In this document: piece by piece, positions 10,558 to 57,596 of the stretch
Numbering within the stretch: position 1 is the first letter of the stretch
Layout: every line of letters begins with the position of its first letter
Assembly (NCBI GenBank): GCA_021414065.1
Contig: JAIOPE010000063.1
Coordinates: 1-64,000 of the forward strand
DNA length: 64,000 nt
Reading direction: 5' to 3'
Source: Planctomycetota bacterium
GTDB lineage: Bacteria; Planctomycetota; JAJSAM01; JAJVHW01
Translations under genes and position numbers: made by a program
The notes under the pieces: model-generated
Database searches by the model: none
What the model saw: only the letters and a program-made list of their open reading frames with translations
Told to the model about the DNA's origin: nothing

Positions 10558-10703
10558 GATCCGACCGATGGTACTGCCGTCGCTGCGACCGCCCTTGCAC
10601 CGCCCGGGCAGCGGCGTGACTCACGTCGCACAGCGGGCCATGCGTCCCGCCCGAACGACCGCACGCGGGGGTTCTCTCAAGTCGAGACGCCGCTGGGCTC
10701 GAT

Positions 10704-11993
10704 GTGAAGGACGCGACCATCCCCGGAGAGCGCGTGCCCACACTCCAAGCGTCTTCGCTCCGAGCTCACGAACGCCGTGTCTGCCGCACCCTCGATGCCC
10801 GCGGCCAGCCGGGCCTCGGCGAGGCGCTCGTCAGGCTCGACGGAACCGTGTTCGGAGGGAACCTGCGCCTCGACTCGCTCTACGCCGTCGGCGGCGAGGG
10901 CGTCGTGTTCCTCTGCAACGACCTCAGCGACCCGACGGCACGGCTCGTCGCGAAGCTCCCGCTCGTCCCGTTTCACAAGCCGATTGAGCTGTCGTCGAAC
11001 TTCCTCCGCCGCCGTCGTGAACAGCTTCGTGAGGAGAGCCGTAATCTCGAGGCGAGTCGCAGCGCGTTCCTGCCCGTGTCGCGCGGACTTCACGATCTTC
11101 CGAACACACTCCTCGACTCCGCGCGCGGCGGCGAGTTCGCGCTGCCCGACCCGGTTCTCGTCATGGAGTGGATGCCGGGCTTCGACCTCGACGTCTGGCT
11201 CGCCCGCGTACACCGGAGCGACGTGCCGGTCGCGCTCCTGCGCCGGAACCTCGATCGAGTGGCGGTCGTGCTGCTGAAGTCGCTCGTGGACCTCGAGGAC
11301 CGCGGCTTCCACTATGCGGACCTCCGCCCCGGAAACCTGCGCATGATGGGGCGGCCCGAGCGCCGCATTCGTCTCCTCGACGCGGGAAGCCTGGTCGAGC
11401 GCGGCGACGAGAGCGGTCGTTTCCCGCACGTCCCGGCGTACCTCCCGCCCGATCTTTTCCGGCGTCGCCAGGAGTCCGGCGAGTCGATCTTCCCCACCGC
11501 GACGACGCAGGCCGTGATGGCGGGCCGCACGCTGTACGAAGTCGCTACCGGCCGCGTTCCGCTTCCCGGCAAGGAGATCGACCGCGACGCGCTCAAGGAG
11601 AGCAACGTCTCCGCGCCGGTCGGCGACGTGATCGACGGCCTGGCGACGGGCAGCTTCACAGACGTCCGGCCGGCGCTTCGCTACCTCGAGAAGCGCGCGC
11701 TGAAACGTGTCGCCCTCCCGGCTCCGACCGCGCGACCGGTCGTGTCCACAGCATCCGTGTCCGCAACCGTCCCGACTGCGGCTGCCTCACTGCGCCCCGC
11801 GCGCACGCCGACACCCATCGTCCCCCTCACGATCGAGACCGCCGCCCCGGCAGCCGTGTCGTCGCCGTCAGCGCCGTCAGCGCCGTCAGCACCGTCAGCA
11901 CCGCCAGCGCCGTCGCGTGACGAACCCCCGAACGACGACATCCTCCCGCCCTCGCCAAAGCGCCCGTGGTGGAAGCGCCTCCTCGGCGGTTGA
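10704..11993 (+). CDS. Atypical protein-kinase-like protein with proline/alanine-rich tail
   Basis: 429 residues from GTG 10704; GTG 10734 is an alternative. A kinase-like fold spans roughly residues 45-330: a glycine-rich loop YAVGGEGVVFLC, a VAKLPL strand with a candidate beta3 lysine, an LVMEWMPG hinge, a catalytic-loop-like YADLRPGN and a metal-loop-like LLDAGS. Compared with HRDLKPEN and DFG, the catalytic loop has Tyr-Ala in place of His-Arg and the second motif is DAG, so activity is possible but degenerate. The tail has a nine-base tandem repeat encoding PSA units, then an acidic-to-basic C-terminus. No transmembrane segment. It could be a pseudokinase scaffold or a signalling kinase. 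Confidence 0.75.
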   Translation: MKDATIPGERVPTLQASSLRAHERRVCRTLDARGQPGLGEALVRLDGTVFGGNLRLDSLYAVGGEGVVFLCNDLSDPTARLVAKLPLVPFHKPIELSSNFLRRRREQLREESRNLEASRSAFLPVSRGLHDLPNTLLDSARGGEFALPDPVLVMEWMPGFDLDVWLARVHRSDVPVALLRRNLDRVAVVLLKSLVDLEDRGFHYADLRPGNLRMMGRPERRIRLLDAGSLVERGDESGRFPHVPAYLPPDLFRRRQESGESIFPTATTQAVMAGRTLYEVATGRVPLPGKEIDRDALKESNVSAPVGDVIDGLATGSFTDVRPALRYLEKRALKRVALPAPTARPVVSTASVSATVPTAAASLRPARTPTPIVPLTIETAAPAAVSSPSAPSAPSAPSAPPAPSRDEPPNDDILPPSPKRPWWKRLLGG

Positions 11994-12001
11994 ATACGGA
12001 G

Positions 12002-12023
12002 GCGGGACAATCTTTTGTCCCGC
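12002..12023. terminator. Hairpin between convergent genes
   Basis: Perfect 9-bp stem (12002-12010 with 12015-12023) around TCTT, sitting between the convergent stops at 11993 and 12053. Probably a bidirectional terminator, although the T tract is short. Confidence 0.55.
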
Positions 12024-12052
12024 GCAATTCGTTCACCGGACGGCGGTGGACC

Positions 12053-15000
12053 TCACGCCGTCAGACGTCGCGCCCGCCGCCGGCGCAGCGCCCACACCGC
12101 GGCGAACAGGCCGAGGAATGCAAGCCCCGCCGCGATGCGTCGGCCTGTCCCCGGAGTGCGCGTCGAGATCGTCACGACGGCCGCCGAGTCGAGCTTCCGG
12201 AAGGCGTACGCGCGGCCTTGCTCAACGAGCGGCGGAGCAAGAGAGATGAGGCCTTGGACGGACGGCGCGGGGGTCGCCCTGCCGCCGCCCGGACCTCCGC
12301 CGTTCCCGCCCAGCCTCGCGCCACCACCACCGCCGCCGCCGCCGAAGTACCCGGAGAAGTCCCGACCGGCCGCCTGCACGAGCGGTCGCGCGGCACCCGC
12401 CGCGGTGGGATCGCTACCCCACGAGCCGGCGGTGCCCTCCTGTCCGGGATCGCTCCCCGGCCGCGCAGCCCCGAACAGCGCATTGCTGCTCGGGCCCCAG
12501 CCCATCGAACGCACGAGGTCCGACTCGAGCCCATCACGACGGTAGACGGACTTCAGCTTGTCCCCGGAGACGACGAACGCGTCGAAACTGCCGTGCGTCA
12601 CGAGCGCCACGTCCACTTCGCTCCCGTCGCCGCCGCGGTCCCCGCCCGCGGTCTGCGGGCCCTCGGCAACGAACCGCGACTTCGACCTCGCCCCGCCCGG
12701 TGACTGGCCGGCCTGCGGCGGCGCGCCGGGCTTGCTCGGTGCGCTGTTCGGTGGGATCACACGGTTGCTCAGCCACGTCTTCTCGGACTGCGCCTCCTTC
12801 GTCGCGTAACGCGCGTGGTCGTCGGACTGCTTCTGCGCTTCGTTCATGTCGTCGATGTTCGTGAGCGCGCCTGTCGGGTCGAGGTTGACGTCGTCGCCGC
12901 GGACCGTGCCTGGGCCCGTGTTCCGGCGGACGTCGCCGAGCGCCTGCTCGATCTCCGACGCGAGGTCCTTCGCCTTGCGGCGGCCCTCGGCGAGCCGCGC
13001 GCGGTCCACGCGTCCTTCCGACGCCGCTCGCTCCAGATCGGCCATGCGCGACTGCGCGAGGTCGAGCGACTCCTGCAACTCGCGCGTGTTCTCGACGAGG
13101 TTCTGCGCGGCCACGATCTGCTGCTGCCGCGAGCCCTTCTCCAGCACCGTGCGCAGACGCGAGACGTCCGACGCGTAGGCCTCGGCGCGCGAGATCGCGA
13201 CCTCCATCTCCTCGATGGAGTCCATGTTCCCGGAGAACGAGTAGTTGCGATCTTCGGGAAGGACGAGCCGCCAGGTCGTCGCATCCACGGGCACTCCGGG
13301 GAACTCGGGCAGCCGCGGCTCGAGCGTGCTGAAGCGCGCGCCCGGCGCAGTCGCCGCCGACCGGAACGTGAGGGAGACGACCTGACTCTCCTCACCGAGC
13401 GACTGCACGCGCACCGGCACCTGCACCACGCCCGGCTCAGCGGGCCGCGTCACCGGCCGCACCGGCGCGCCGCCGACGAGCACCGACTCGAGGTCCGCGT
13501 CGGCGGGGAGCTTCACCGGGAGGAACGACCGTGCGCGGTTGAAGAGCCGAACGGTCACCCGCGTGCGCGACGACCCGTCGCGATCGGCCACGGTCGTCGC
13601 GTCCACGAGGTGGATGCGGGCCTCGGGCAGATCCCCGAGTTGATGAGCGACGAGCCGCAACGGGAGCCGCCACGCGGTGTCGCGGGCGCGGAGGAACCGG
13701 AGCACCCGCAACGGGTCGAGGCCCTGCGGGATGAGCGGGAGGTCGGAGACGTCGCACGTCTCGAGTCCGGGCGCGGCGGCGATCTGCACTTCCGACTCGC
13801 CGAGCGCGCGGAGCAGCAGGAACGCACGGGCGCCCTCGCCGCCGACGGGCTCGGGGCCCGCCACGACGATCGACCCGTCCGCGGGGACCGCGAGGTCGTA
13901 GAGGACCCGGAACGACACGGATCCGGTGGCTGCGGCCTGCATCGTCACTGTGAGCCGCTGCCGGTCCCCGACCATCTCGCGACGCACCTCGCGGAGCCCG
14001 TCGCCGAGGACCCACGCATCGGTCACGCCCGGCGGGGCGTCCACGCGGAACACGCGCTCGCCGCCGCCGCGAACGTCCCACTCAACCAGCGCATCGACGA
14101 TCACGCGGTCGTCGAGCACGGTCAGGTCGGCGACCACCGTCGGGCGAACGATCGGCTGCAGGACGTCGCGTCGGATCGAGACCGCGCCGTCGCCGCGGGC
14201 GTCGTGCCACGCCAACGTGCGCGACTCGGCGACGTCGAGAGCGGGCCAACCGGCGAACTGCTCCGCCGGGACCGACTCCAATCCGGTGGCGCCAACGGCC
14301 GCAGCTGCGAACCCGGGCGACGTCGAGACGAGCAGATCCGCGGTTTCGCGGGTGGCACCGACGACGCGAAGCACCGGGAACGGCAGCGCTTCGCCGCCGG
14401 CGACAGGTCCGCGCAGTCGCAGCGTGACACTCCGTGCTTCGCGGGGCGCGCCCTTGAAGACGAGTCGCACCGAGCCGGGCTCGGCGAACGACGTCGCGCC
14501 GATGGCCTCGTCCAGCGACCAGCCCGCGGGCACGGCCACGCCGGCCTCAAAGAGACCGCGCGGCCCCGGCGCGAAGTCGAACTCGGCGCGCAGTCGCGAC
14601 GCCTCGGAACCAAGATGCAGGTGCTGCCGCGACGCGACGGTGAGGTCCGCCGCGACCGCCTCGACGCGCACCACGAGCCGGGACGGAGCCCGCACCCGGC
14701 GGAACGTCAGCACGCCGGGTTGCGCGCCCGCGGCGTTGTCCGTCCGCTCCACGCCAGCCGTCTCGATGACCGCGAGGCGGCCTTCCTCGGCGGAGACGGA
14801 CACACGACTGCGATCGACCGCGGCACCGCGGACCAGAAACTCCGGGACGACGACCGAGTCGCCTCCGCCCGCGAGGTGGACGAGTCCGGTGAGCGCGATC
14901 TTCGACTCACCGGGTCCTGCGCCGAGCAGTCGCACGCGGAGCGTTCCGCGATCGACCACCGTCCACGACGCGACGGCCGCGCCGCCGACCGACCGCATCT

Positions 15001-24046: not shown

Positions 24047-24075
24047 GAGTTTTTGAGTTTTTGGGGACCGTCCCC
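24047..24075 (-). repeat. REP-like palindromic repeat, copy 2
   Basis: Same unit as 7954-7982 in opposite orientation: GAGTTTTTGAG then GGGGACCGTCCCC. Confidence 0.75.
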
Positions 24076-24116
24076 GCGGGCGCAAGGGAGTCGGACGCGC
24101 CGAACGAGGCCGCTGG

Positions 24117-25018: not shown

Positions 25019-28020
<3,002 letters not shown>

Positions 28021-28688: not shown

Positions 28689-31034
28689 ATGCGGATCCTC
28701 CACGTCATCCACGGATACCCGATGCGCTTCAACGCCGGGTCCGAGGTCTATACGCAGTCGCTCTGTCACGCGCTCGCCGCGCGGCACGAGGTCCACATCT
28801 TCACTCGCGACGAGGACCCTTTCGCACCGGCGCACTCCCCGCGGCTGGAGCAGGACCGGGACGACCCGCGCATCACGCTCCACCTCGTGAACATGGCCGG
28901 ATCGCGCGACCGCTACCGCCACGAGGCCGTCGATCGGCGCTTCGGCGAGGTGATCGACCGGACCCGGGCGGAGTTGGTCCACATCGGACACCTGAACCAC
29001 CTGTCGACCTCGCTGGTCGCCGAAGCTGCCCGGCGCGGACTCCCCGTCGTCTTCACTCTCCACGACTACTGGTTGATGTGCCCGCGCGGCCAGTTCATGC
29101 AACTCTCGCCCGAGGACGCAAACGATACATGGACCGTCTGCGACGGCCAAGAGCATGAGAAGTGTGCGCGCCGCTGCTACAGCCGCTACTTCTCCGGCGC
29201 GCCCAATGAGGAGTCGTCGGACGTCGCCGCCTGGACCGACTGGGTCGCCCGTCGCATGGCCCACGTCCGCGAGGTCTGCGAACTCGTCGACCTATTCCTC
29301 GTGCCGTCCGAGGTGATGGTGGACCGCTTCCACCGCGAATTCGGGCTGCCCCTCGCGAAGCTGAAGTACCTCGACTACGGCTTCGATCGTCAGCTTCTCT
29401 CGCAACGACGACGCACGCCGGGCGAGCCGTTCACGTTCGGGTACATCGGGACGCACACGCCGGCCAAGGGCATCCACGTTCTCATTGACGCGTTCGGTCG
29501 GGTGCGGGGCGCGGCCCAGTTGCGCATTTACGGCCGTCCACGAAGCCCGGAGACAGCCGCGCTGCATTCGCGCGCCCGGGCGCTCCCGAACGGAGCCGGG
29601 GACCGAGTCCAGTGGCTCCCGGAGTACCAGAACGGGGACATCGTCCGCGAGGTGTTCGACCGCGTCGATGCCATCGTCGTCCCTTCCATCTGGGTCGAGA
29701 ACTCCCCGCTCGTCATCCACGAGGCCCAAGCCGTCCGCGTTCCAGTGATCAGCGGCGACGTCGGCGGGATGGCGGAACTCGTTCGCCACGAGGAGAACGG
29801 ACTCCTGTTCCGCCATCGCGACGCGGCCGATCTCGCGCGGCAAATGCAGCGACTCGCCGACGATCGGGCGCTCGCGCGCCGCCTCGGCGCGCGCGGCTAC
29901 GTCCGAGATCCGGAGGGCCGGGTCCCCGACCTCGCGGACCATGCCGCGGCGATTGAGACGACCTACGGTGAGCTGATCGAGCGACGCCGGACCGCGCGCG
30001 TCGACGCCCTGCCGGGTCCGTGGCGCATCACGTTCGACACCAACCCCGACGACTGCAATCTCCACTGCGTGATGTGCGAGGAGCACAGCCCGCACAGTCC
30101 GCTCCAGGCCGCGCGGCGCGCCGCGGGTCACCCGCCGCGACGCATGCCGATTGCGCTGATCCGACAGGTCATCGCCGAGGCAGCGTCCCGCGGACTCCGC
30201 GAGGTCATTCCGTCCACGATGGGCGAGCCACTCCTCTTCGCCGAGTTCGAGGAGATCCTCGCCCTGTGCCGCGATCACAGTGTGAAGCTCAATCTCACGA
30301 CGAACGGGACGTTCCCGCGACTCGGCGCGCGCGCGTGGGCAGAGAAGATCGTCCCGGTCACATCCGACGTGAAGATCTCGTGGAACGGCGCCACGAAGGC
30401 AACGCACGAGGCCGTCATGCTCGGCGCGCGGTGGGAGCAGATGCTTGGCAACGTCCGCGAGTTCGTGGCCGTGCGTGACGAGCACGCCGCCGTGGGTGCC
30501 GATCGCTGCCGCGTGACCTTCCAGCTCACGTTCCTCGAGACGAACGTCGCAGAGATCCCCGACGTGGTGCGTCTCGCTGCGGAACTCGGCATCGATCGCG
30601 TAAAGGGCCACCATCTCTGGGCGCACTTCGACGGGATCAAGTCGGAGTCGATGCGTCGAAGCCCGGAGTCGATCGCGCACTGGAACGCCGTCGTGCGGGC
30701 GGCGCGCGAAGCGGCCGAGCGGCATCGTCTCCCGGACGGGCGCCGCGTGCTGCTGGAGAACATCTTCCCCCTCGACTCCGATGCGCCCGAGGACCTGGCG
30801 CGCGGAGGGCCCTGCCCGTTTCTCGGCCAAGAGGCGTGGATCAGCGCCGAGGGCCGCTTCAACCCCTGCTGCGCGCCCGACGCGCAGCGCCGCACCCTCG
30901 GCGAGTTCGGGAACCTGAACCAGACCGTCCTCGCAGAGGTCTGGAACGGGGATGCGTATCGGCAGCTCGTCGCGGGCTACGCGAGCCGTGATCTCTGCCG
31001 CGGATGCAACATGCGCAGGCCGGTGACACCATGA
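28689..31034 (+). CDS. Fusion of GT4-type glycosyltransferase and radical SAM/SPASM-like domain
   Basis: 781 residues from ATG 28689 (MRILHVIHGYPMRFNAGSEV). Residues 1-435 are a GT-B glycosyltransferase: an N-terminal Rossmann start with a GSEVYTQ acceptor loop, a linker with FTFGYIGTHTPAKGIHVL, and the nucleotide-sugar site VVPSIWVENSPLVIHEAQA with the Glu-x7-Glu-like pattern. Residues 445-781 are a radical SAM enzyme with cluster motif C456-x3-C460-x2-C463 (CNLHCVMC), GEPLLFAEFEE, and a C-terminal cysteine set (CC at 727-728, C770 and C773) typical of a SPASM/auxiliary cluster. Joining a sugar transferase to a SAM radical enzyme is unusual and implies successive modification of the same substrate. 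The stop overlaps the next start by ATGA. Confidence 0.85.
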   Translation: MRILHVIHGYPMRFNAGSEVYTQSLCHALAARHEVHIFTRDEDPFAPAHSPRLEQDRDDPRITLHLVNMAGSRDRYRHEAVDRRFGEVIDRTRAELVHIGHLNHLSTSLVAEAARRGLPVVFTLHDYWLMCPRGQFMQLSPEDANDTWTVCDGQEHEKCARRCYSRYFSGAPNEESSDVAAWTDWVARRMAHVREVCELVDLFLVPSEVMVDRFHREFGLPLAKLKYLDYGFDRQLLSQRRRTPGEPFTFGYIGTHTPAKGIHVLIDAFGRVRGAAQLRIYGRPRSPETAALHSRARALPNGAGDRVQWLPEYQNGDIVREVFDRVDAIVVPSIWVENSPLVIHEAQAVRVPVISGDVGGMAELVRHEENGLLFRHRDAADLARQMQRLADDRALARRLGARGYVRDPEGRVPDLADHAAAIETTYGELIERRRTARVDALPGPWRITFDTNPDDCNLHCVMCEEHSPHSPLQAARRAAGHPPRRMPIALIRQVIAEAASRGLREVIPSTMGEPLLFAEFEEILALCRDHSVKLNLTTNGTFPRLGARAWAEKIVPVTSDVKISWNGATKATHEAVMLGARWEQMLGNVREFVAVRDEHAAVGADRCRVTFQLTFLETNVAEIPDVVRLAAELGIDRVKGHHLWAHFDGIKSESMRRSPESIAHWNAVVRAAREAAERHRLPDGRRVLLENIFPLDSDAPEDLARGGPCPFLGQEAWISAEGRFNPCCAPDAQRRTLGEFGNLNQTVLAEVWNGDAYRQLVAGYASRDLCRGCNMRRPVTP

Positions 31035-32326
31035 CCGACTGGCGCATCACCAAGGTGGCGCAGGACGGCACCCACCATTTGTTCGAAGGCCGGCCGATCT
31101 ATGCGGCGCGCTTCCGCGAGGTCCTGAAGTTCCACGCGCCCGGTCTCGCCGCGGTCCTCGGGGACGACGGCGCGTGGCACATCGACGTCGACGGATGCTC
31201 GGCCTACTCGGAGCGGCACGTGCGCACGTTCGGCTTCTACGAGGACCGGGCCGCCGTTGAAGGCGCGGACGGTTGGTTCCACGTTCTCCCCGACGGCTCG
31301 CCGCTCCAAGCCGACCGGTACTCATGGTGCGGGAACTTCCAGGAGGGCCGCTGCGTCGTTCGCGACGCGGGCGGCCGATACTTCCATGTCGCGCTCAACG
31401 GCGGGGACGCGTACGCGGAGCGGCATCTCTATGCCGGTGACTTTCGTGACGACGCGGCAGTCGTGCGGCACCGGGCGGACGGCCTCTGCGGGCACATCGA
31501 TCCAAGCGGGCACCAGATCCACGGGACGCGGCTCCTCGACCTCGACGTCTATCACAAGGGGTACGCACGCGCGCGCGACCCGGCGGGCTGGTTCCATGTC
31601 GATCGCGCGGGTCGCCCGGCGTACGCCCGCCGATTCTTCGGCGTCGAGCCCTTCTACAATGGCACCGCCCTCGCCTGGACGACCGCCGGGACGCGCGTCC
31701 TCATCGACCAGCGCGGCGAGACCCGCCACGAGATCGCCGATTTCCGAGGACGTTTGTCCGCGTCTTCGGCTCAGCCCAAGGTGCTGGTCCTTGGGAACGT
31801 CGGCGCGGGCAAGTCGACGCTCGTCTCGGCCCTCGCGGCACGAAGGGAGTGGCGCAGCGCCTCGATCGACGCATCCCGCCGCACGCACGGAGACGGCAGC
31901 GCCGACGGAGAACTTCGGGCGTGGGCCGCCTTCGTCTCTGCCGCGAGGTCCGCCGGACCACTGCTGCTTGAATGCACCGGCGTCGGCCCCCAGATCCCGC
32001 TGCTTCGCCTTGCGTTGCGGAGCTCCGGCGACAAGATCGGCGTCCTGTGGCTCCGCGCGCCCATCGATGTCTGCCGGACACGCGTGACCGGCCGGCCCTC
32101 ACCGCCGCCGTACCCGGACTTCGGCGTCGCCATCGGCCAGGTCGTCGCCGACTTGGAGCAACACCTCTCCGCCGCCATGGCGCCTAACGGTACGTGGCAC
32201 AGGGACCTGATCGACGAACTAGACGGGACCGCACCGCTCGACGCACTGGTCGCACGCGCCGACAGCCTCATCGACGCCTGGGAAAGGAGTGAGCCACATG
32301 CGCCATCTGACGCAGCTCGCGGATGA
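31031..32326 (+). CDS. WG-repeat protein fused to a P-loop kinase domain
   Basis: 431 residues. ATG 31031 overlaps the upstream stop by ATGA. Residues 1-245 are seven or so WG-like beta repeats, each with a GWFHV or similar core (for example GAWHIDVDG, GWFHVLPDG, GRYFHVALNG, GWFHVDRAG), probably a protein-binding surface. Residues 248-431 are a P-loop NTPase with Walker A GNVGAGKST at 255-263, followed by a LLLECTG strand and VLWLRAP with a downstream R-rich lid, resembling small-molecule kinases of the shikimate/adenylylsulfate kinase type. The likely role is phosphorylation of a small or peptide substrate of this pathway. The next gene starts 29 bp before its stop. Confidence 0.8.
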   Translation: MTDWRITKVAQDGTHHLFEGRPIYAARFREVLKFHAPGLAAVLGDDGAWHIDVDGCSAYSERHVRTFGFYEDRAAVEGADGWFHVLPDGSPLQADRYSWCGNFQEGRCVVRDAGGRYFHVALNGGDAYAERHLYAGDFRDDAAVVRHRADGLCGHIDPSGHQIHGTRLLDLDVYHKGYARARDPAGWFHVDRAGRPAYARRFFGVEPFYNGTALAWTTAGTRVLIDQRGETRHEIADFRGRLSASSAQPKVLVLGNVGAGKSTLVSALAARREWRSASIDASRRTHGDGSADGELRAWAAFVSAARSAGPLLLECTGVGPQIPLLRLALRSSGDKIGVLWLRAPIDVCRTRVTGRPSPPPYPDFGVAIGQVVADLEQHLSAAMAPNGTWHRDLIDELDGTAPLDALVARADSLIDAWERSEPHAPSDAARG

Positions 32327-33728
32327 CGTTCGCCGCTGGGCGGAAGGCGAGGACGCCGTGCGGGCGGTCCTTTGGTACGGAACCCTGGCGCTTGGGAGGT
32401 CGAGCCCCCACTCGGACGTTGATGCGGCCGTGGTCCATCGGGGTACGGCCTCCGACGTGGTCGCGTCCCTCCAGAGATTCCTCGGCGACCGAGTCCGCGA
32501 GGTCGCGTTCATCGCGTCCCGCGGCGAGGCAGCCATCTGGGTCGACGAAGCGCTGACCAAGATCGACCTCCGCACGGCTGGTTCGCCGGACGATCTTGTG
32601 TCGATGGCGACGAGCCCCGACGTCCCTGCTCCCCGGTTCGTGGTCGTGCTCGACAAGGACGGGAGCTGCGGAGAAATCGCTGAAGCGGCCGCGGCGCAGC
32701 TTCCCCGGGATCTCGGCGCGCTCGTCAACGAGGAGATCGAGAAGTTCCTGGTCGCCTTCGAGGCGGCGTCCAACGCGCACCGCCGCAGCGACGGCTACCG
32801 GTTCTACTTCGAGTACAACCTCGCGCTGCACCGGCTCGCGCGCCTCGTCGAACTCGCCCGCGGCGGCGACGCGTACTTGTTCCTCCCGCGGATGCTGCTC
32901 TCGGGACGCATGCGCCGTGACGAGCAGGAGCGGTTCCGGGCGCTGCACGGCGAGTTGTACCTGCCCGAAGCAGCGGCGCTGAAGCAGCGACTCGTCGACG
33001 CGTTCCTGGATGCGATCGATGAAGTCGCGCGCCGCTTCGCTGTTCGCCGCGACCGGGACTCGCTTCGAAGGTTCCTGAACTCCGTCCTCGAGCGCGATCT
33101 CTTCTACAACCTCCGGGACTTCGCCGACGCCTTCGACGGCCGGGTCAGGAGGGGCGTGCTCTTCCGCGGTTCGACGCTCAGTCGCTGGACCGGTACGCCC
33201 GAACTCAACGCGTGGCTCTCCGCGAGGAACGTCCGCAGGGTCCTCGACTTCCGGGACGCCGACGAGGCGAAGGCGAAGCACGCATACCCCGCGGATTGGA
33301 CGCTGCGCCTCGACGTGCGGGCGTTGCCGCTCTCAGCGAAACCCGGCGCGAGGGGCGCTCCGAGCGGGCGCCCAATCGGCGAGGGCTACTACCGGACCTT
33401 CCTCGCCCATCTTTCGAACGTCGCGGGTGCCCTTCGCATGATCGCGGATCCGGTCGACGGCGCCGTCGTCGTCCACTGCTACGCAGGGAAGGACCGCACC
33501 GGGTGGTTCTGTGCGGCGCTCGCCCTGCTCCTCGGACTCGACGGCGAGTTCATCGTCGACGACTTCCTGCGGAGCGGCCAGGACACGAAGGAGCCCGCGA
33601 TCAGGGAGTTCCTCGAGTTAGTGCAGGAGGGAGGCGGCGCCGAGTCGCATCTCGATCGCGCGGGGTTCGTCGCGTCCGACGTCGCGCGCCTACGCGGCCG
33701 CCTGCTCGCCGCTGACGCTCCCGCGTGA
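32298..33728 (+). CDS. Fusion of nucleotidyltransferase and tyrosine-phosphatase-like domain
   Basis: 476 residues from ATG 32298, which is preceded by AAGGAG; the in-frame GTG at 32289 overlaps that site. Residues 1-110 are a Pol-beta-type minimal nucleotidyltransferase with GTLALGRSSPHSDVDAAV, D40 and D42 being the metal ligands. Residues 120-275 are helical. Residues 280-476 form a dual-specificity/tyrosine phosphatase with signature HCYAGKDRTG (nucleophile C394, R400) and an upstream DFRDADE loop. The order is transferase then phosphatase, so one polypeptide could both add and remove a phosphoryl or nucleotidyl group. It overlaps the kinase gene, and the end at 33728 faces the minus-strand operon only 10 bp away. 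Confidence 0.85.
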   Translation: MRHLTQLADDVRRWAEGEDAVRAVLWYGTLALGRSSPHSDVDAAVVHRGTASDVVASLQRFLGDRVREVAFIASRGEAAIWVDEALTKIDLRTAGSPDDLVSMATSPDVPAPRFVVVLDKDGSCGEIAEAAAAQLPRDLGALVNEEIEKFLVAFEAASNAHRRSDGYRFYFEYNLALHRLARLVELARGGDAYLFLPRMLLSGRMRRDEQERFRALHGELYLPEAAALKQRLVDAFLDAIDEVARRFAVRRDRDSLRRFLNSVLERDLFYNLRDFADAFDGRVRRGVLFRGSTLSRWTGTPELNAWLSARNVRRVLDFRDADEAKAKHAYPADWTLRLDVRALPLSAKPGARGAPSGRPIGEGYYRTFLAHLSNVAGALRMIADPVDGAVVVHCYAGKDRTGWFCAALALLLGLDGEFIVDDFLRSGQDTKEPAIREFLELVQEGGGAESHLDRAGFVASDVARLRGRLLAADAPA

Positions 33729-33738
33729 CGCTGCGCCG

Positions 33739-34752
33739 CTATCCCGTCGGCTCGCTACGCCCAGGCACAGGTGGACGGGCAGCGTCGAGACAGCGCTCCC
33801 AGGTGCTCGGGTCGTAGGCGGCGCGGTCGAGCAGGTAAGGATGATCCCACTCGCCGAAGGGCTGTCTCTCGGGAGGCATAGGTGTTGCGCGCCCCCTCCG
33901 TACGAGTTCGGCACACTGCTCGCGATCACCCCGCGCCAAGGCAAGCCGCGCCGCAAACAGCAGCGGCTCGGCGCGCGGCCCGATCGCAGCGGCAGCCTCG
34001 TAATCCTCAAACGCCGCGACCGCGTCGGAGCGGCCCTCGCGGCAGCGCCCTCTCATCAGTAGCGCCTCGCTGCGGTGGTAGCGGTAGCCCGGCTGGCCGG
34101 CGAGGTACCGCGTCAGCCACTCCTCAGCCGCCATCAGATCGCCCTCCTCGAAGCACGTCGCGCCCAGGTAGTAGAGGAGGTGCGGGTCGGCGGGAGCCTG
34201 CTGCAGAGCGCGTTCGAGGATCGCGCGATAGCGCCGTGGGCGATCTTCGCGCTCGTGCTCGACGACCGCGCCCCGAGCCGCCAAGTCGTGGCCCGTGCGC
34301 GACGGCAGCGGATCGAGGAGTTCATGCACCGGGTACTTCCAGCGGAACGCCGACCGGCGATGGCACCGGGGGAACCAGTGGAGGTTCGTCGCGTGGTAGC
34401 GCCGTCGAACGAACAACCGATCAGCCCCTTGGCGCTCGGCGGACGCAACCTCCGTGGCCAGCCAAGTACTTCGCAACTCCGTCGCATCCACACGGAGTCG
34501 CTCGTCGGCGTCGAAGCGCACGATCCAGTCGTGACGGGCCTGCGCTTCGGCGTACGAGCGGGCGGCCGCGAAGTCGTCGCACCACGTGAACTGGCAGACG
34601 CGGGCGCCGGCGGCTCGTGCGACGTCCATCGTGCCGTCGGTGCTTCCCGTGTCGCAGACGACGACGTCCGGAACGTCGCCCAAGCTAGCCAACGCAGCAC
34701 CGAGGGCGCGTTCCTCGTCACGGACGATGAGAACGACCGCGAACACGGTCAC
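33739..34752 (-). CDS. GT2-family glycosyltransferase with TPR-like C-terminus
   Basis: 337 residues. I place the start at GTG 34752, which overlaps the upstream stop by GTGA; the open frame to 35019 is low-complexity Arg-rich and unlike the family. The N-terminus VFAVVLIVRDEERALGAAL is the nucleotide-binding strand of GT-A enzymes, followed by VVCDTGSTDGTMDVA and a metal-binding DADERLRVD (DxD). From about residue 190 the sequence is helical repeat (TPR-like), for example LLYYLGATCFEEGDL. Such TPR-GT2 proteins typically glycosylate protein or glycan acceptors. Convergent with the three-gene operon at 28.7-33.7 kb. Confidence 0.85.
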   Translation of the reverse strand: MTVFAVVLIVRDEERALGAALASLGDVPDVVVCDTGSTDGTMDVARAAGARVCQFTWCDDFAAARSYAEAQARHDWIVRFDADERLRVDATELRSTWLATEVASAERQGADRLFVRRRYHATNLHWFPRCHRRSAFRWKYPVHELLDPLPSRTGHDLAARGAVVEHEREDRPRRYRAILERALQQAPADPHLLYYLGATCFEEGDLMAAEEWLTRYLAGQPGYRYHRSEALLMRGRCREGRSDAVAAFEDYEAAAAIGPRAEPLLFAARLALARGDREQCAELVRRGRATPMPPERQPFGEWDHPYLLDRAAYDPSTWERCLDAARPPVPGRSEPTG

Positions 34753-35378
34753 CACACCCGGAGCACGTAGCGGCGATCCTCGCCGGACCTCGGCGACCGC
34801 TCTTCCCAGCGCACCGCATCGCCGTGCCATCTGCAGGGCCCGAACGAGAGCCCGACGTGCGCGTCGAAGCGCATGGGCCGAATGCCGTCGCGCCCGGCCT
34901 GGCGCGTGAGTGCAAGGAGTCGGTGGTTCCCATCGAGGATGCTGAATGGCCCGTCGCGCCCCCGTCCGAAGAGTGCGATCCTTCGATCCAGGTGCGAGAC
35001 GTCGAGCGTGCCCTCCCACGCGGTGACGCGCGCCTCGTGCGGTGACCCGGGAACGAGGCTCGTCGCGACGGAGTGCAGATCGCGGACTGCGCTTGGCGGA
35101 TCAGGGAACCACGACTCCTCTGCGATTACCCGCAGGTCGCTTAGGTCGTCGGGCACTTCGATCCTTACGCGGAACCAGTCGCACGGCGGCAGGAAGCGAA
35201 GAAACAGCCACGAGCCATCGACCAGCGCTCGGTATCGCTCCGCGGCCGTCGGTGGAACGCCATGCGGTGCCGCAGCGGGAAGCGCGTCGTGGCCGCCGAT
35301 GCCGCCGCCCGCCAGAATCCCCGCGCAGACATCATCGAACGGCACCTGTTCCCACTTCTTGGTGGACCACTTGGTCAT
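34749..35378 (-). CDS. Uncharacterised DGNHRL-motif protein (ParB/Srx-like fold?)
   Basis: 209 residues from ATG 35378 with a GGAGGG ribosome-binding site very close upstream. It opens MTKWSTKKWEQVPFDDVC and has a PDDLSDLRVIAEESWF block. Near residue 150 comes PFSILDGNHRLLAL, the phosphate/nucleotide-binding motif seen in ParB/sulfiredoxin-fold proteins and free-serine kinases. This suggests ATP or small-molecule binding, but the rest has no clear match. It is coupled to the GT2 gene by GTGA and should act in the same step. Confidence 0.6.
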   Translation of the reverse strand: MTKWSTKKWEQVPFDDVCAGILAGGGIGGHDALPAAAPHGVPPTAAERYRALVDGSWLFLRFLPPCDWFRVRIEVPDDLSDLRVIAEESWFPDPPSAVRDLHSVATSLVPGSPHEARVTAWEGTLDVSHLDRRIALFGRGRDGPFSILDGNHRLLALTRQAGRDGIRPMRFDAHVGLSFGPCRWHGDAVRWEERSPRSGEDRRYVLRVW

Positions 35379-35448: not shown

Positions 35449-35525
35449 TGGTATCCCCGGCAGGATTCGAACCTGCGACCCCAGCTTTAGGAAAGCTGTG
35501 CTCTATCCAACTGAGCTACGGGGAC
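35449..35525 (-). tRNA. tRNA-Arg (anticodon CCU)
   Basis: Full cloverleaf on the minus strand: acceptor GTCCCCG with CGGGGAT, D arm GCTC..GAGC, anticodon stem CAGCT/AGCTG with loop TTCCTAA (anticodon CCU, reads AGG), T arm GCAGG-TTCGAAT-CCTGC, discriminator A and an encoded CCA at 35449-35451. It flanks the tyrosine integrase at 35591, so it is the likely attachment site. Its 5' half and upstream 60 bp recur inverted at 27766-27864. Confidence 0.95.
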
Positions 35526-35590
35526 ACAACCGACGTGGCGGGTCGAGGATAGGGCGAGCGTCCACCAGCCCGAACTTCCGAACGCGAGCG
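35526..35590 (-). repeat. tRNA-Arg upstream repeat, right copy
   Basis: Lies between the integrase stop and the tRNA 5' end. Its reverse complement resembles 27766-27825, as described there. Probably the tRNA promoter plus attachment-site flank. Confidence 0.65.
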
Positions 35591-36997
35591 TCAGCCGCGG
35601 CCGAGCGTCTTTGCGCGCTGCAGGAGCGCGTCGCGCGCCCGTTCGTCGAGGTCGCTCCAGGCGGCGAACAACGCGTCCACGCGCGCGTCCGACGACGCGG
35701 GCGCGGCATCGTCGGTGCCGGTCGCGAGCGCCGCGTCCAGCGCGGGCGGCGCGACGTCGAGGTCGGGCAGCGCCGCGACGGCCTCGCGCTCGTCGTCCGA
35801 GTTGAGCACGGTGTAGATGCTGCTCGTCAGTCGCGGGTCGCTGTGGCGCATGAGCCGTTGGGCGAGCTGGAGCGGCACCCGGCTGCGGGCGAGGTTCGTC
35901 GCGAACGTCACCCGCAGGCTGTGGAAGTCGACGACGCGCCCGGCGTCGTCGCGGTACGCAATCCCGGCGAGCGCGAGGTAGTCGCGAATCACCGTCGCTG
36001 CGGGCCACCAGCGATAGAGCTCGAAGACACGCGCCATGGGGAGCGCCTTGCCGATGTAGTCGCGGACGGCCGCCGCCGTCCCGGCGCGCAGCGGGAGCCG
36101 CGCCTCGCGGCGGTTCTTTGCGTTCGTCGCGCGCACGCGGATCGACGCGCGGTCGATGTCCGTGAGATCGACGTCGGCGACGACGAGGGCGCGCAGTTCG
36201 CCGAGGCGCAGTCCCGTCTCTGCTGCGACGCGGTAGAGGACGGCGCGCTTGTGCCCCGTGACGGCCCGGTAGGGCGGCGCGGACTCGGTCGCGGCGAGGA
36301 GCGCGCGCAGTTCGTCGGCCGTGAGCGCACGGCGCTCGCGGCGACGATCGAGTTCCGCGTTGAGGGGACGGAGACCGCGGAGCGGATCCTCGGCGATGAG
36401 CCCCGACCGGATCGCCCAGCCGAGGAACTCCCGGATCGCCTGCAGGTAGCCGTTCGATGTCCGCGCGCTCATGGGAGCGCGCTTGCCGACCCCGCGCTCG
36501 CGGCGGTCGCGAAGGTACCTCTCGACACGGGTCGGATCGATGTCCGCAAACGTCCGGAACCCGCACGCCTCGATCACCCTCTGCGTGTTGGACCGGGTCC
36601 GCATCTTCTGCGGGCGGCCCGTTCCCTTGGCGGCGAGGTGCTCCTGCCACGCGTCGATGTGGACAGCGAGCGGCGCAGCGGCGGCGAGTTGCTTCCGGTC
36701 GAGGAGGTCGAAGCGGGCGAGCGTCTCCCGCGTGCGCACGGGGAGCGCGTCGCACCAGCGGCGGATGTCCGACGACGGCGGGGTCGCGGACGCCCGGGCG
36801 TGGACCAAGTGCTTGAGCTTCTCCTCCATCGCTTCCGTCGAGCGCCGGTCGGCGAGCCCGCGGATCTTGCGGCGGACGTCCTTGTGGTCGCGGAACTGTA
36901 TCCACCACGTCGGCGACCGGAAGCCCTCGCCCTTCACCCGGTAGGTGGGGCGGTAGAGACTCACCGGCCGCTCTCCCATCGGTCGCGCGGCGGACAT
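35591..36997 (-). CDS. int: Tyrosine-recombinase integrase
   Basis: 468 residues. Site-specific recombinase that inserts and excises the prophage. The N-terminal third binds arm sites and contains ERYLRDRRERG; the catalytic domain shows the first Arg in AAETGLRLGELRAL (about residue 260), HSLRVTFATNLAR (His-x-x-Arg, about 357), LMRHSDPRLT and the nucleophile Tyr in SSIYTVLN (about 395). All active-site residues are present. ATG 36997 is the longest likely start; ATG 36979 (MGERPVSLYRP) is an alternative and either overlaps the excisionase-like gene. Its 3' end lies 65 bp from the 5' end of tRNA-Arg(CCU). Confidence 0.95.
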   Translation of the reverse strand: MSAARPMGERPVSLYRPTYRVKGEGFRSPTWWIQFRDHKDVRRKIRGLADRRSTEAMEEKLKHLVHARASATPPSSDIRRWCDALPVRTRETLARFDLLDRKQLAAAAPLAVHIDAWQEHLAAKGTGRPQKMRTRSNTQRVIEACGFRTFADIDPTRVERYLRDRRERGVGKRAPMSARTSNGYLQAIREFLGWAIRSGLIAEDPLRGLRPLNAELDRRRERRALTADELRALLAATESAPPYRAVTGHKRAVLYRVAAETGLRLGELRALVVADVDLTDIDRASIRVRATNAKNRREARLPLRAGTAAAVRDYIGKALPMARVFELYRWWPAATVIRDYLALAGIAYRDDAGRVVDFHSLRVTFATNLARSRVPLQLAQRLMRHSDPRLTSSIYTVLNSDDEREAVAALPDLDVAPPALDAALATGTDDAAPASSDARVDALFAAWSDLDERARDALLQRAKTLGRG

Positions 36998-37215
36998 CCC
37001 GCTTCGACCCAGCGCCGGAGTTCGGGTCGCGACCAGCGCCGGAACTTCGAGAGCCGGATCGGGCTCGGGACGACGCCGCTCAGGTCGAGCCGGTAGAAGC
37101 TGCTGCGGCTGACTCCGAGGAAGTCCGCCGCCTCCGTCGCGTCGAGGAGGAGCGGAAGGGCGGCCTCGGGTATCCGCGCCCGGGGCGCGAGGTCCACAGG
37201 TGTGTCGATCGTCAT
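36961..37215 (-). CDS. AlpA/MerR-like helix-turn-helix protein, probable excisionase
   Basis: About 84 residues from ATG 37215 (MTIDTPVDL); the open frame extends to 37440 but the extra part is low-complexity. The core LLLDATEAADFLGVSRSSFYRLDLSGVVPSPIRLSKFRRWSRPEL is the winged HTH of AlpA/phage excisionase family proteins that recognise DNA and help excision. The C-terminus is short and charged. It overlaps the integrase start by about 37 bp, so the two are one transcript. Confidence 0.85.
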   Translation of the reverse strand: MTIDTPVDLAPRARIPEAALPLLLDATEAADFLGVSRSSFYRLDLSGVVPSPIRLSKFRRWSRPELRRWVEAGCPPRDRWESGR

Positions 37216-37648
37216 GGGGTCGATGTTGCTCGCGGGCGCGACCTCATCGAGTTCAGGCCGAGCCGGGTTCCGGGGTGTCGCGCCGGGCGTCGCCGCCGAC
37301 GTCGGCGGCGCGATCTGGCGCGAACGCCCGCGCCGCGCGTGGCGCGATTCGGCGCGCTCGCTGCCCAAGGGCTGGTGGGGTAACTCCGTTGCTCCACCAG
37401 ATCGCGTAGAACCCGCGTAATTGCTTGCACTTGCGTCCATGGGCGTCCCTGGGTGTTTGTAGTCTGTTCGGTATTGGACAGGACAACCGCGAACCCCGAT
37501 GGGTCGCGCCGGACTCGGCCAGGGGTGGCCCGAGGAACCCGCTGTGATGTCCCCCGCGCGAGGGCAGTGCGTGACCGCCCGGGCGCGAGACAGATCGCAA
37601 GGATAAGAGCTTTCCGCATCGCGTGCAACACAAAGGTGGCAAGCATAG
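37216..37648. other. Divergent control region between integrase operon and regulators
   Basis: About 430 bp without a supported gene. It should hold the leftward promoter for excisionase/integrase and the operators for the Xre-type regulators, but I could not identify a clear leftward -35/-10 pair. Confidence 0.4.
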
Positions 37649-55033: not shown

Positions 55034-55926
55034 CAGGACACCTTCCCGTCGCTCTTGACTTGCTCGGCAAGGGTCTGCGGGAGCTTGTCGAGCTTCTCCT
55101 TGCGCAAGACGGCAACGAAGGCCTCGTCGGCGAGGAGCTGGCGGATGCTGGCGAGCACGAACTGGAGCTTCGTCTCGCACTGCCTGGCCTGGCGAACGAC
55201 AACCCGCTGCCGGGTCGTCTCCTGCTTGTAGACCCGGAGGACGGCTTCGCCGTTGATCGGCGCGCCGCGCCGCGGCGCGGACCCGATGCGCTTGCCACGC
55301 GCGTGGCGCTGGTCAATGAGGCGTCGTGCCCGGAGCAGGTCCTTGCCGCGGAGCGAGTTCTCCGTGTACGCATCCGCGAGCGCCCGCTGAACAGTCGCGT
55401 CGTCGGACGTCGCGATCGTCACTGCGATCGAGATGGGAATCTGCAGCATCTCCACCGCGCGGAGCAGCCGCTCCTCGCCCTTGCTCAGGAGCCGGAGCAT
55501 GCCCTGGACATACGTCGCCGTGAGGCCGGTCTTATCTGCGATCTCGGCGTGCGAGTAGCCCTCGTCCTTCAGGGTGGCGATGCCGGCCATCAGCTCGGGC
55601 GTGCTCCGCACGCGACGAGCCAGGTTCTCGGCGAGGCTCATGAGCATCACCTCGTCCTTCGAGGCGTTGACGACGAATGCGGGAACCTCGCGCTGGCCCA
55701 GGGCCTGGAACGCCTCCAGCCGTCCCTGCCCGCACACGAGGTCGTACTGCTGCGGGTTGCCACTGCGATTGCGGCGCGGGGTAACGGTGATGGGCTTCTT
55801 CAGGCCGAGATTGGCGATGTTGTCCACGATCTGCTTGAACTTGATCTTCCCGCGCGCGCGCGGGTTCACGACCACGATCTGGTCGATCGGGATCATCTCG
55901 ATCTCTGTCGGGCGCTCCTCCGTCAT
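55033..55926 (-). CDS. ParB-like protein (first of pair)
   Basis: 297 residues from ATG 55926, overlapping the recombinase stop (ATGA). EIEMIPIDQIVVVNPRARG, LKKPITVTPRRN, YDLVCGQGRLEAFQALGQ (GQGR loop) then SLAENLARRVRS and an HTH (YSHAEIADKTGLTATYVQGML). This resembles ParB/Noc family DNA-binding proteins. The recombinase plus two ParB-like genes order recurs in plasmid- and island-borne elements. It probably controls or aids the recombinase, or partitions the excised element. Confidence 0.87.
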   Translation of the reverse strand: MTEERPTEIEMIPIDQIVVVNPRARGKIKFKQIVDNIANLGLKKPITVTPRRNRSGNPQQYDLVCGQGRLEAFQALGQREVPAFVVNASKDEVMLMSLAENLARRVRSTPELMAGIATLKDEGYSHAEIADKTGLTATYVQGMLRLLSKGEERLLRAVEMLQIPISIAVTIATSDDATVQRALADAYTENSLRGKDLLRARRLIDQRHARGKRIGSAPRRGAPINGEAVLRVYKQETTRQRVVVRQARQCETKLQFVLASIRQLLADEAFVAVLRKEKLDKLPQTLAEQVKSDGKVS

Positions 55927-57476
55927 GCGGCACCCCCGATCGGGAGCAAGGTCGCCATGCCCATGAAGAACGAGAGCGTGTCGAAACGGTACGTGTCGAT
56001 CCGCGCTCCGTTGTGCTGGCAGAGCTTCAGGCGGCCAAGATCGACCCCCATGCGGGGAATCAGGTAGTAGTCGGACGGCTGTTCGTTGGAGGGGTCCATC
56101 CGGACGACGATCACGACGTCGGCCGTGGACCGCTCCGGCACGACCCAGCGAGCGGACCCCGCCGGCGTCTGGCTGCAACGCGAGAGGAGCATCGACGCCG
56201 TGTAGAACTGGTTGATGGAGAGGATGTTCGACTCGCCGTCGTGCTTGACCGTGGCGCCGACGGACTCGAGATCCTGCATGAGGTCGTCGAGGAGGCGCGG
56301 GTACGCGGCGCGAAGCCGCCGGTTGATCTCGACGTACTCGTAGGAGCTGTCCGGCGTGTAGCCCGCCAGGCGGTAGGCCTCGACCATGCCCCCGAAGCGG
56401 AGGCGGTAGGCTGTGCTGGAAGGGAGGCCCTCGGCGTCGTCGATCAGGGCGCCGGAGAGATAGCCGTGTCCCTTGTGGAGCGTCCGGAGGCGCTCGATCA
56501 TTTCCTCGGGCGAGAGCCGCCGTGCCCGCTCCTGGATGATCCCGCGCGCCATGAAGAACTGTTCGGGCTCGATCAGGGCGGGGAAGACGCCGTCCTTGCG
56601 CACCCACCTGTCGGGCGGGTTCACGACGTGCTCCTTCTTCAGCTTGAAGGAGGTGCGATTCCAGACGTTGTTGCCGATGTACTTCTCGTTGGTGAGGATC
56701 GAGTGGACGCGCCCACGCGTCCAGGCGGAGCCCTCGGTCGACACGATGCCCCGAACGTTGAGGAGGTCGGCGATCTGGCGCTCGGCGAGGCCTTCGTCGA
56801 TGAAGCGCCGGTAGATCTCGCGGACGACTTCGATTTCGTCCCCCGGGCCCTTCACGAGAACGACGCGGTCGGTCTGGAGGCTCTTGTGCTCGCCGCGAGC
56901 GATGATGCCCTTGGACTCGCCCTTCTGGTCCAGGAGCATCCGCCGCAGGCCGAACCCCGCTGGGCCGCCCTGGCGGTAGCCGTGCTCGATCAGTCGGCAC
57001 TGGCCCCTGAAGACCTTGGCCGAGAGCTCACGGCTGTACTCGCCGGCCATCGCGCGCTTGACGCCCTTGATGATCGTGGAGACGGGGCTGCCGTCGTTCT
57101 CGAACTGCTCGGCGCAGTAGATAACCCGGATGCCAGCGCGCTTGCAGGTGTGCTCGTAGTAGGCGCTCTCGTCGGTGTCCTGAAATCGCCCCCAGCGGCT
57201 CACGTCGTACACGAGGACGGCCTCGAATCCCGCGTTGCCGGCGACGACGTCCTGAATGAGCTGGTTCAGGGAGTCGCGGCCCTGCAGCCGCAGCCCGCTC
57301 TTTCCGTCGTCGGCGTACGTCTTCACAATCTCGTAGCCGCGCGCGAGCGCGTAGTCGCGGATCGCGTCGCCCTGGTTCTCGGTCGAGTACTGCTGGTGCT
57401 CGGTGGACATCCGCACGTACTGCGCGGCGCGCATGAGGGGCGGGTCGTCGGGCGGCTGCTGGCGGGAGGTACTCAT
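55923..57476 (-). CDS. Large serine recombinase
   Basis: 517 residues from ATG 57476 (MSTSRQQPPDD). The resolvase catalytic domain begins AAQYVRMSTEHQQYSTENQ with the nucleophile Ser24, then YADDGKSGL, VLVYDVSRWGR and YCAEQFENDGSP. A recombinase domain (GFGLRRM.., VREIYRRFIDEGLAERQIADLLN, WTRGRVHSILTNEKYIGN) follows. The C-terminal part has no clear zinc-ribbon cysteines. Such enzymes insert DNA directionally at specific att cores within genes. The flanking GACCAGAC duplication fits its attachment site. Confidence 0.92.
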   Translation of the reverse strand: MSTSRQQPPDDPPLMRAAQYVRMSTEHQQYSTENQGDAIRDYALARGYEIVKTYADDGKSGLRLQGRDSLNQLIQDVVAGNAGFEAVLVYDVSRWGRFQDTDESAYYEHTCKRAGIRVIYCAEQFENDGSPVSTIIKGVKRAMAGEYSRELSAKVFRGQCRLIEHGYRQGGPAGFGLRRMLLDQKGESKGIIARGEHKSLQTDRVVLVKGPGDEIEVVREIYRRFIDEGLAERQIADLLNVRGIVSTEGSAWTRGRVHSILTNEKYIGNNVWNRTSFKLKKEHVVNPPDRWVRKDGVFPALIEPEQFFMARGIIQERARRLSPEEMIERLRTLHKGHGYLSGALIDDAEGLPSSTAYRLRFGGMVEAYRLAGYTPDSSYEYVEINRRLRAAYPRLLDDLMQDLESVGATVKHDGESNILSINQFYTASMLLSRCSQTPAGSARWVVPERSTADVVIVVRMDPSNEQPSDYYLIPRMGVDLGRLKLCQHNGARIDTYRFDTLSFFMGMATLLPIGGAA

Positions 57477-57596
57477 GGGGGTGTGGGTCTCGGCTGGACG
57501 AGGGGGGCGCACCTCGGCTGTCGGGTGCTGAACCGCGGGCGATCCTCGCGCAGCGCTGTGGCATGGCGGTGTCATCGCAGTGGCATCTCTGTGTCA

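Follow-up and report, generated by a model that had tools for sequence, protein, structure and literature searches.

A kinase and nucleotidyltransferase-phosphatase variant of a widespread glycosyltransferase-radical SAM/WG gene core within a planctomycete prophage insertion

The 64,000-nucleotide stretch of Planctomycetota DNA analysed here (the window) carries an island of five genes, positions 28689-35378 by ORF calling, with P1-P3 on the plus strand and P4-P5 on the minus strand. Its conserved core is P1, in which a GT4 glycosyltransferase and a radical SAM/SPASM enzyme are joined, together with the WG domain of P2. The core is already known from Wolbachia phage WO; the new element is a variant in which the core is accompanied by a kinase and a nucleotidyltransferase-phosphatase fusion. 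We give roughly even chances to reading the island as one version of a biosynthetic operon that spreads horizontally and whose proposed chemistry yields a small soluble glycoside with swappable tailoring. The gene anatomy, its conservation and co-occurrence, the intact catalytic motifs and the placement in a tRNA-Arg insertion with phage genes are established; each proposed chemical step is an inference. The features of the island are as follows:

28689-31034, plus strand: P1, fusion of a GT4 glycosyltransferase with a radical SAM/SPASM enzyme, 781 aa, core gene (Pfam; phrog_21308, 4e-196)
31031-31771, plus strand: N-terminal WG domain of P2, ∼240 aa, predicted propeller-like, core (homologues, structure model)
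31775-32326, plus strand: C-terminal P-loop kinase domain of P2, variant cargo (Walker A GNVGAGKS at 31793)
32289 or 32298-33728, plus strand: P3, Pol-beta-type nucleotidyltransferase fused to a PF13350 tyrosine-type phosphatase, variant cargo (Pfam, motifs)
33739-34755, minus strand: P4, GT2 glycosyltransferase with TPR repeats (GT2 + TPR 1.1e-10; ORF open to 35019)
34749-35378, minus strand: P5, family-less protein with an ILDGNHRLLAL motif (ORF calling)

The original prediction had described five genes with these domains and junctions, and ORF calling, Pfam and motif searches bear it out in all but two start codons. The stop codons of P3 and P4 do meet end to end, 10 bp apart; P1 and P2 overlap by 4 nt, P2 and P3 by 29-38 nt. 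The multi-domain fusions are genuine by Pfam and motif scan, and the scan finds intact catalytic motifs: E-x7-E, CX3CX2C, Walker A, GT…SDVD, HCX5R and DxD. The first start of P4, at 35019, would create a 270-nt overlap with P5, so the true start is probably near 34755.

P1 has a GT4 domain of two Rossmann lobes with E-x7-E at residue 337, a radical SAM motif CX3CX2C at residue 456 and the C-terminal SPASM cysteines (Pfam scores: GT4 3e-27, radical SAM 1.5e-11, SPASM 6e-10). The solved structure closest to its GT4 domain, in a weak or generic match, is that of Tll1590, a sucrose-phosphate synthase; enzymes of this sort work on sugar phosphates and have a phosphatase as partner. For P2 (31031-32326, plus strand, 431 aa), Pfam returns a weak P-loop match and nothing more; the WG domain is certain from its homologues and from a high-confidence model (mean pLDDT 96.8). 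Its structural matches are beta-propellers, BamB among them, at good E-values but with a TM score of about 0.5 and an rmsd near 7 Å; a propeller-like ring is therefore likely, in a fold that is no close copy. In P3, the nucleotidyltransferase carries the GT...SDVD motif and a weak Pfam Polbeta match (0.03-0.09), the fold having been modelled for the NT2 domain of relatives only, and the phosphatase is assigned to PF13350 at 1.8e-28, with the HCX5R active site HCYAGKDR at residue 396. The best solved relatives of P4 are GmaR and SunS, glycosyltransferases of protein and peptide.

The distribution of the core was followed with a radical SAM domain profile, which retrieved 295 relatives from the genome collection. 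The best 80 of these, taken with their flanks, were joined by the window and by planctomycete, viral, phage and plasmid loci to give 88 analysed loci, among which one contig is counted twice (L021 and L052) and one locus (L023) is a broken copy. In all 88 the radical SAM domain has a WG neighbour of about 240 aa, and GT4 is absent only from the broken copy and from two contigs that end early. Among the best 80 relatives the core occurs in Myxococcota, Chloroflexota, Pseudomonadota, Planctomycetota, Cyanobacteriota and others; it is also found in two viral contigs, one Arsenophonus plasmid and Wolbachia phage WO. A WG query returns the same three Arsenophonus plasmids that are the only strong plasmid matches of the radical SAM domain, and among phages WO only. 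Radical SAM domains among the best matches in other phyla share 71-76% identity with that of P1, and in the radical SAM tree Myxococcota and Pseudomonadota are intermixed while the window stands apart from the Phycisphaerales copies. Kinship with its relatives marks the host as a planctomycete. Within this phylum, four of 392 genomes hold the radical SAM domain (G000, to which the window belongs, and G028, G077 and G111), and the same four hold a full-length WG domain, with a partial one in G001 and weak distant matches in G046 and G132. The partial copy, in a genome of the same family, is a broken core remnant consisting of the radical SAM end and half of WG (L023 5150-5700, on G001:C96).

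This strict co-occurrence supports, beyond chance, the claim that the genes belong together. For P1, P2 and P3 the pattern recurs elsewhere, for P4 in one further genome (a partner 33% identical within the G028 operon), and P5 is found nowhere else: nothing useful was recovered for it in 99 related genomes, plasmids, phages, Pfam, NCBIfam, PADLOC or PHROGs. The idea of an island of unknown, one-off composition is half right: the core recurs widely, and a composition new from nothing has to give way to a variant, the core being on record in phage WO. That unrelated genes were simply stacked at an integration hot spot is scarcely credible: the orphan status of P5 and the location at an insertion site speak for it, but the cross-phylum co-occurrence already refutes it for P1-P3, and the P4 homologue in the G028 operon also counts against it.

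The surroundings of the operons bear on what they make. Among 84 ORFs sampled from the flanks of relatives, no family occurs in more than three, so the short operon on its own makes up the unit. One published proposal, made for the Undecim Cluster of Wolbachia (PMC9203015), would have the operon add or decorate a residue of lipopolysaccharide or exopolysaccharide. GT4, GT2 and, in many relatives, an epimerase are in keeping with this, but the 25 commonest families of the sampled flanking ORFs include no flippase, polymerase or priming transferase, and the island of the window is flanked by katG and a prophage. A role in surface glycans is quite unlikely. The original suggestion that the island tailors a peptide or surface glycan is possible but not favoured. 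Its defence option is left without support: PADLOC returned only generic weak matches to anti-phage defence families.

The genes around the core vary. Across the 88 loci (including the best 80 of 295), an O-methyltransferase is present in 63, almost always as a fusion with WG, and a phosphatase likewise in 63, drawn from two unrelated families: 58 are histidine phosphatases and five tyrosine-type, one of these five being the duplicate contig. An epimerase occurs in 49 loci, the window not among them; NT2 nucleotidyltransferases (20 loci), histidine phosphatase-NT2 fusions (HisPhos-NT2, 14), carbamoyltransferases (11) and kinases (four) are rarer. WG itself is fused to a methyltransferase, an aldolase II or a kinase, or stands alone. 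In the window, the P-loop kinase sits at the usual place of the methyltransferase, and the nucleotidyltransferase-tyrosine phosphatase fusion (NT-PTP) at that of HisPhos-NT2. Two unrelated kinds of phosphatase-nucleotidyltransferase fusion have thus arisen: HisPhos-NT2 (14 loci) and NT-PTP (the window and G077). This recurrence from unrelated families argues that both steps are part of the pathway. The modelled NT2 fold of relatives (pLDDT 93.9) resembles the head region of CCA-adding enzymes, with weaker matches to ANT(2'') and LnuA.

The kinase variant is narrowly distributed: at the thresholds used, homologues of the kinase and of NT-PTP occur in three of the 392 genomes (G000, G028 and G077), always by the core. 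In G028 (Planctomycetota KW1-S15_114, L021/L052) the core is accompanied by a homologous kinase, a PF13350 phosphatase and a GT2, as in the window, but the fusions and gene order differ and a sulfatase-like gene is present. G077 (L022) shares with the window the core, a homologous kinase and the NT-PTP fusion with its PF13350 phosphatase, again in different fusions and order, and has in addition a histidine phosphatase and a carbamoyltransferase; at about 10640-12600 of this locus a transposase (rve) gene seems to break the start of the NT-PTP gene. A tree test rejects the window, G028 and G077 as a single clade (p 5.6e-5) and does not reject window plus G028 (p 0.57), so the claim is limited to two: the kinase cassette sits on at least two core lineages. 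Three separate lineages had been expected and are unsupported by the tree. A search of the literature outside subscription journals brought up no report of the kinase/NT-phosphatase variant or of a substrate or product for any member, and the gene combination led to the Wolbachia work only; as the original prediction had held, no characterised pathway of such composition was found.

This cargo admits an antibiotic-like product that the kinase and nucleotidyltransferase would disarm inside the cell and the phosphatase re-arm. Kinase, nucleotidyltransferase and phosphatase do travel as a group, the NT2 fold weakly matches the antibiotic-modifying ANT(2'') and LnuA, and the Wolbachia cluster includes an ABC exporter; most relatives, however, lack both a kinase and, among the families scored, an exporter, and activity is known for none. 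Such a product is very unlikely.

The preferred reading, a small soluble glycoside, starts from the GT4 alignment of 85 sequences, in which the acceptor and the donor lobe both hold many residues conserved at ≥95%, suggesting one acceptor and one donor common to the family and one first reaction. Variable cargo likewise suggests variable finishing steps. GT4 would transfer the sugar of a nucleotide donor onto the single common acceptor, and the radical SAM enzyme would next oxidise or rearrange the sugar part by BtrN-like chemistry. The WG propeller may hold the intermediate or dock the fused tailoring enzyme, a guess from the WG fusions. The phosphatase would take off a phosphate, and the nucleotidyltransferase add a nucleotide cap or activate a hydroxyl. 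The phosphatase next to GT4 is reminiscent of sucrose-phosphate-type pairs, in which a sugar is first added to a sugar-phosphate acceptor and the phosphate then removed. In most relatives, tailoring would consist of O-methylation and a histidine phosphatase step, often with a nucleotidyltransferase; in the window it would consist of phosphorylation by the P-loop kinase, the nucleotidyltransferase-phosphatase P3 and probably a second sugar added by P4. The reading is weakened by the weak or generic nature of the GT4 and BtrN matches, by the use of peptides or proteins by many SPASM enzymes and the resemblance of P4 to GmaR and SunS, and by the want in the window of the epimerase present in 49 loci.

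The same observations on SPASM enzymes and P4 lend something to protein modification, in which WG would itself be the substrate: GT4 would glycosylate it and the radical SAM/SPASM domain alter it, turning it into an activated or cofactor-carrying subunit for the fused enzyme. WG adjoins radical SAM in every locus analysed and is strongly conserved, and its repeats share invariant His, Trp and Tyr residues. But the variety of WG fusions fits a docking module equally well, and the epimerase, carbamoyltransferase and phosphatases resemble small-molecule tailoring, so that protein modification is unlikely. A related version, in which the WG propeller is a platform covalently glycosylated and radical-modified by P1 that ferries the intermediate to the fused tailoring enzyme, is distinctly improbable; if true, the WG platform would be an undescribed protein-tethered sugar pathway, disseminated by phages and mobile elements of other kinds.

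The island lies within a site-specific insertion, marked by a split target tRNA, a direct repeat core and an intact site in a relative. The features on the window side are:

27832-27865, plus strand: 5' half of the native tRNA-Arg(CCT), left attachment site, with the 15-bp core GCACCGGTTTCCTAA at 27850-27864
35449-35525, minus strand: complete element-borne tRNA-Arg(CCT), anticodon stem differing from the native gene (ARAGORN)
35591-36997, minus strand: tyrosine integrase of the insertion (family searches)
36961-37440, minus strand: HTH_17 protein, excisionase-like (family searches)

At position 27865 the native tRNA-Arg(CCT) is interrupted within the anticodon loop. Its 3' half, with an identical 15-bp core, is found elsewhere in the genome: contig C94 carries it close to a gene that by eye resembles one for glutaminyl-tRNA synthetase. 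The right attachment site (attR) was located by pattern search, and alignment shows the tRNA intact at the corresponding site of the sister genome G001. The island thus begins just inside the left end of the insertion, a setting that the original prediction overlooked. The element-borne tRNA would replace the native gene split by the insertion, and contigs C75 and C94 may hold one element or a composite. An inverted repeat (27744-27864 and 35487-35607) was considered as two phage ends and rejected by the comparison with G001: its left copy contains the native tRNA half and its right copy is the element's own tRNA. The phage genes of the insertion include exonuclease, RuvC, TerL, portal, capsid and tail terminator. 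Positions 35591-64000 read as a tailed-phage prophage, with a ParB-like protein, a DNA methyltransferase and a major capsid protein as well, and its tail-like genes seemingly continue in L026; a second integrase, serine-type, lies between TerL and portal (55926-57575), perhaps in a nested element. By the right attachment site, about 1-12300 of L149 (G000:C94) holds genes that look defence-like by eye (type IIG methylase-like, DUF262-like, SIR2-like). A short palindromic repeat around GGGGACCGTCCCC, perhaps REP-like, recurs in the window at 24047-24080, 27376-27416 and 27685-27722.

Mobile surroundings are shared by relatives, which lie near integrases or on phage contigs in L057, L074, L083, L088, L091, L099, L107, L113, L116, L117 and phage WO. 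In L091, L099, L113, L116 and L117 the core stands by serine recombinases (Phycisphaerales) or phage genes (viral contigs); those on the viral contigs are RusA, ssDNA-binding protein, endolysin and integrase.

Among known systems, a partial likeness is seen with BtrN, the 2-deoxy-scyllo-inosamine dehydrogenase of butirosin: both it and P1 are radical SAM enzymes with a twitch/SPASM-type auxiliary cluster and possible sugar chemistry, but the match is weak and covers the C-terminal part only (E 0.002). The aminoglycoside cluster of Rickettsia buchneri was rejected as a relative because its gene list differs. The Undecim Cluster of Wolbachia is like the island in its GT4-radical SAM/SPASM fusion (UC3) followed by a WG protein (UC4), its prophage location and its lateral spread (UC2-UC4 are WD0612-WD0614). 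Polysaccharide and methylation roles were proposed for it from homology only (PMC9203015); the core genes were recorded as WD0613/WD0614, with a WG-O-methyltransferase fusion and with homologues, likely syntenic, among free-living bacteria, and UC2 and UC3 are the cluster's most abundant proteins (Baldridge 2015; PMC4701759). A 2025 paper calls its functions unknown and reports it duplicated in an obligate symbiont (PMC12801941). The UC2 epimerase, UC5 PhyH, UC6 ABC exporter and UC7/8 aldolases have no match at 26-38 kb of the window, and the island has the kinase, nucleotidyltransferase-phosphatase and GT2-TPR enzyme instead: WG, joined to an O-methyltransferase in UC4, is kept, and the methyltransferase is replaced by the kinase. 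Free-living operons, such as those of Azospira oryzae (L110), Halomonas sp. (L059) and Hydrogenophaga (L080), have the core in identical order but usually fuse WG to an O-methyltransferase and carry a histidine phosphatase, often NT2-fused. Conserved in Wolbachia prophages and highly expressed, the Undecim Cluster is awkward to test for function in Wolbachia itself; its core is a short operon in many phyla, cultured strains such as Azospira oryzae DSM 21223, Halomonas sp. 25-S5 and Myxococcus vastator included, which offers deletion-capable hosts, and the swapping of tailoring genes for unrelated enzymes of matching type allows fixed and variable steps to be told apart.
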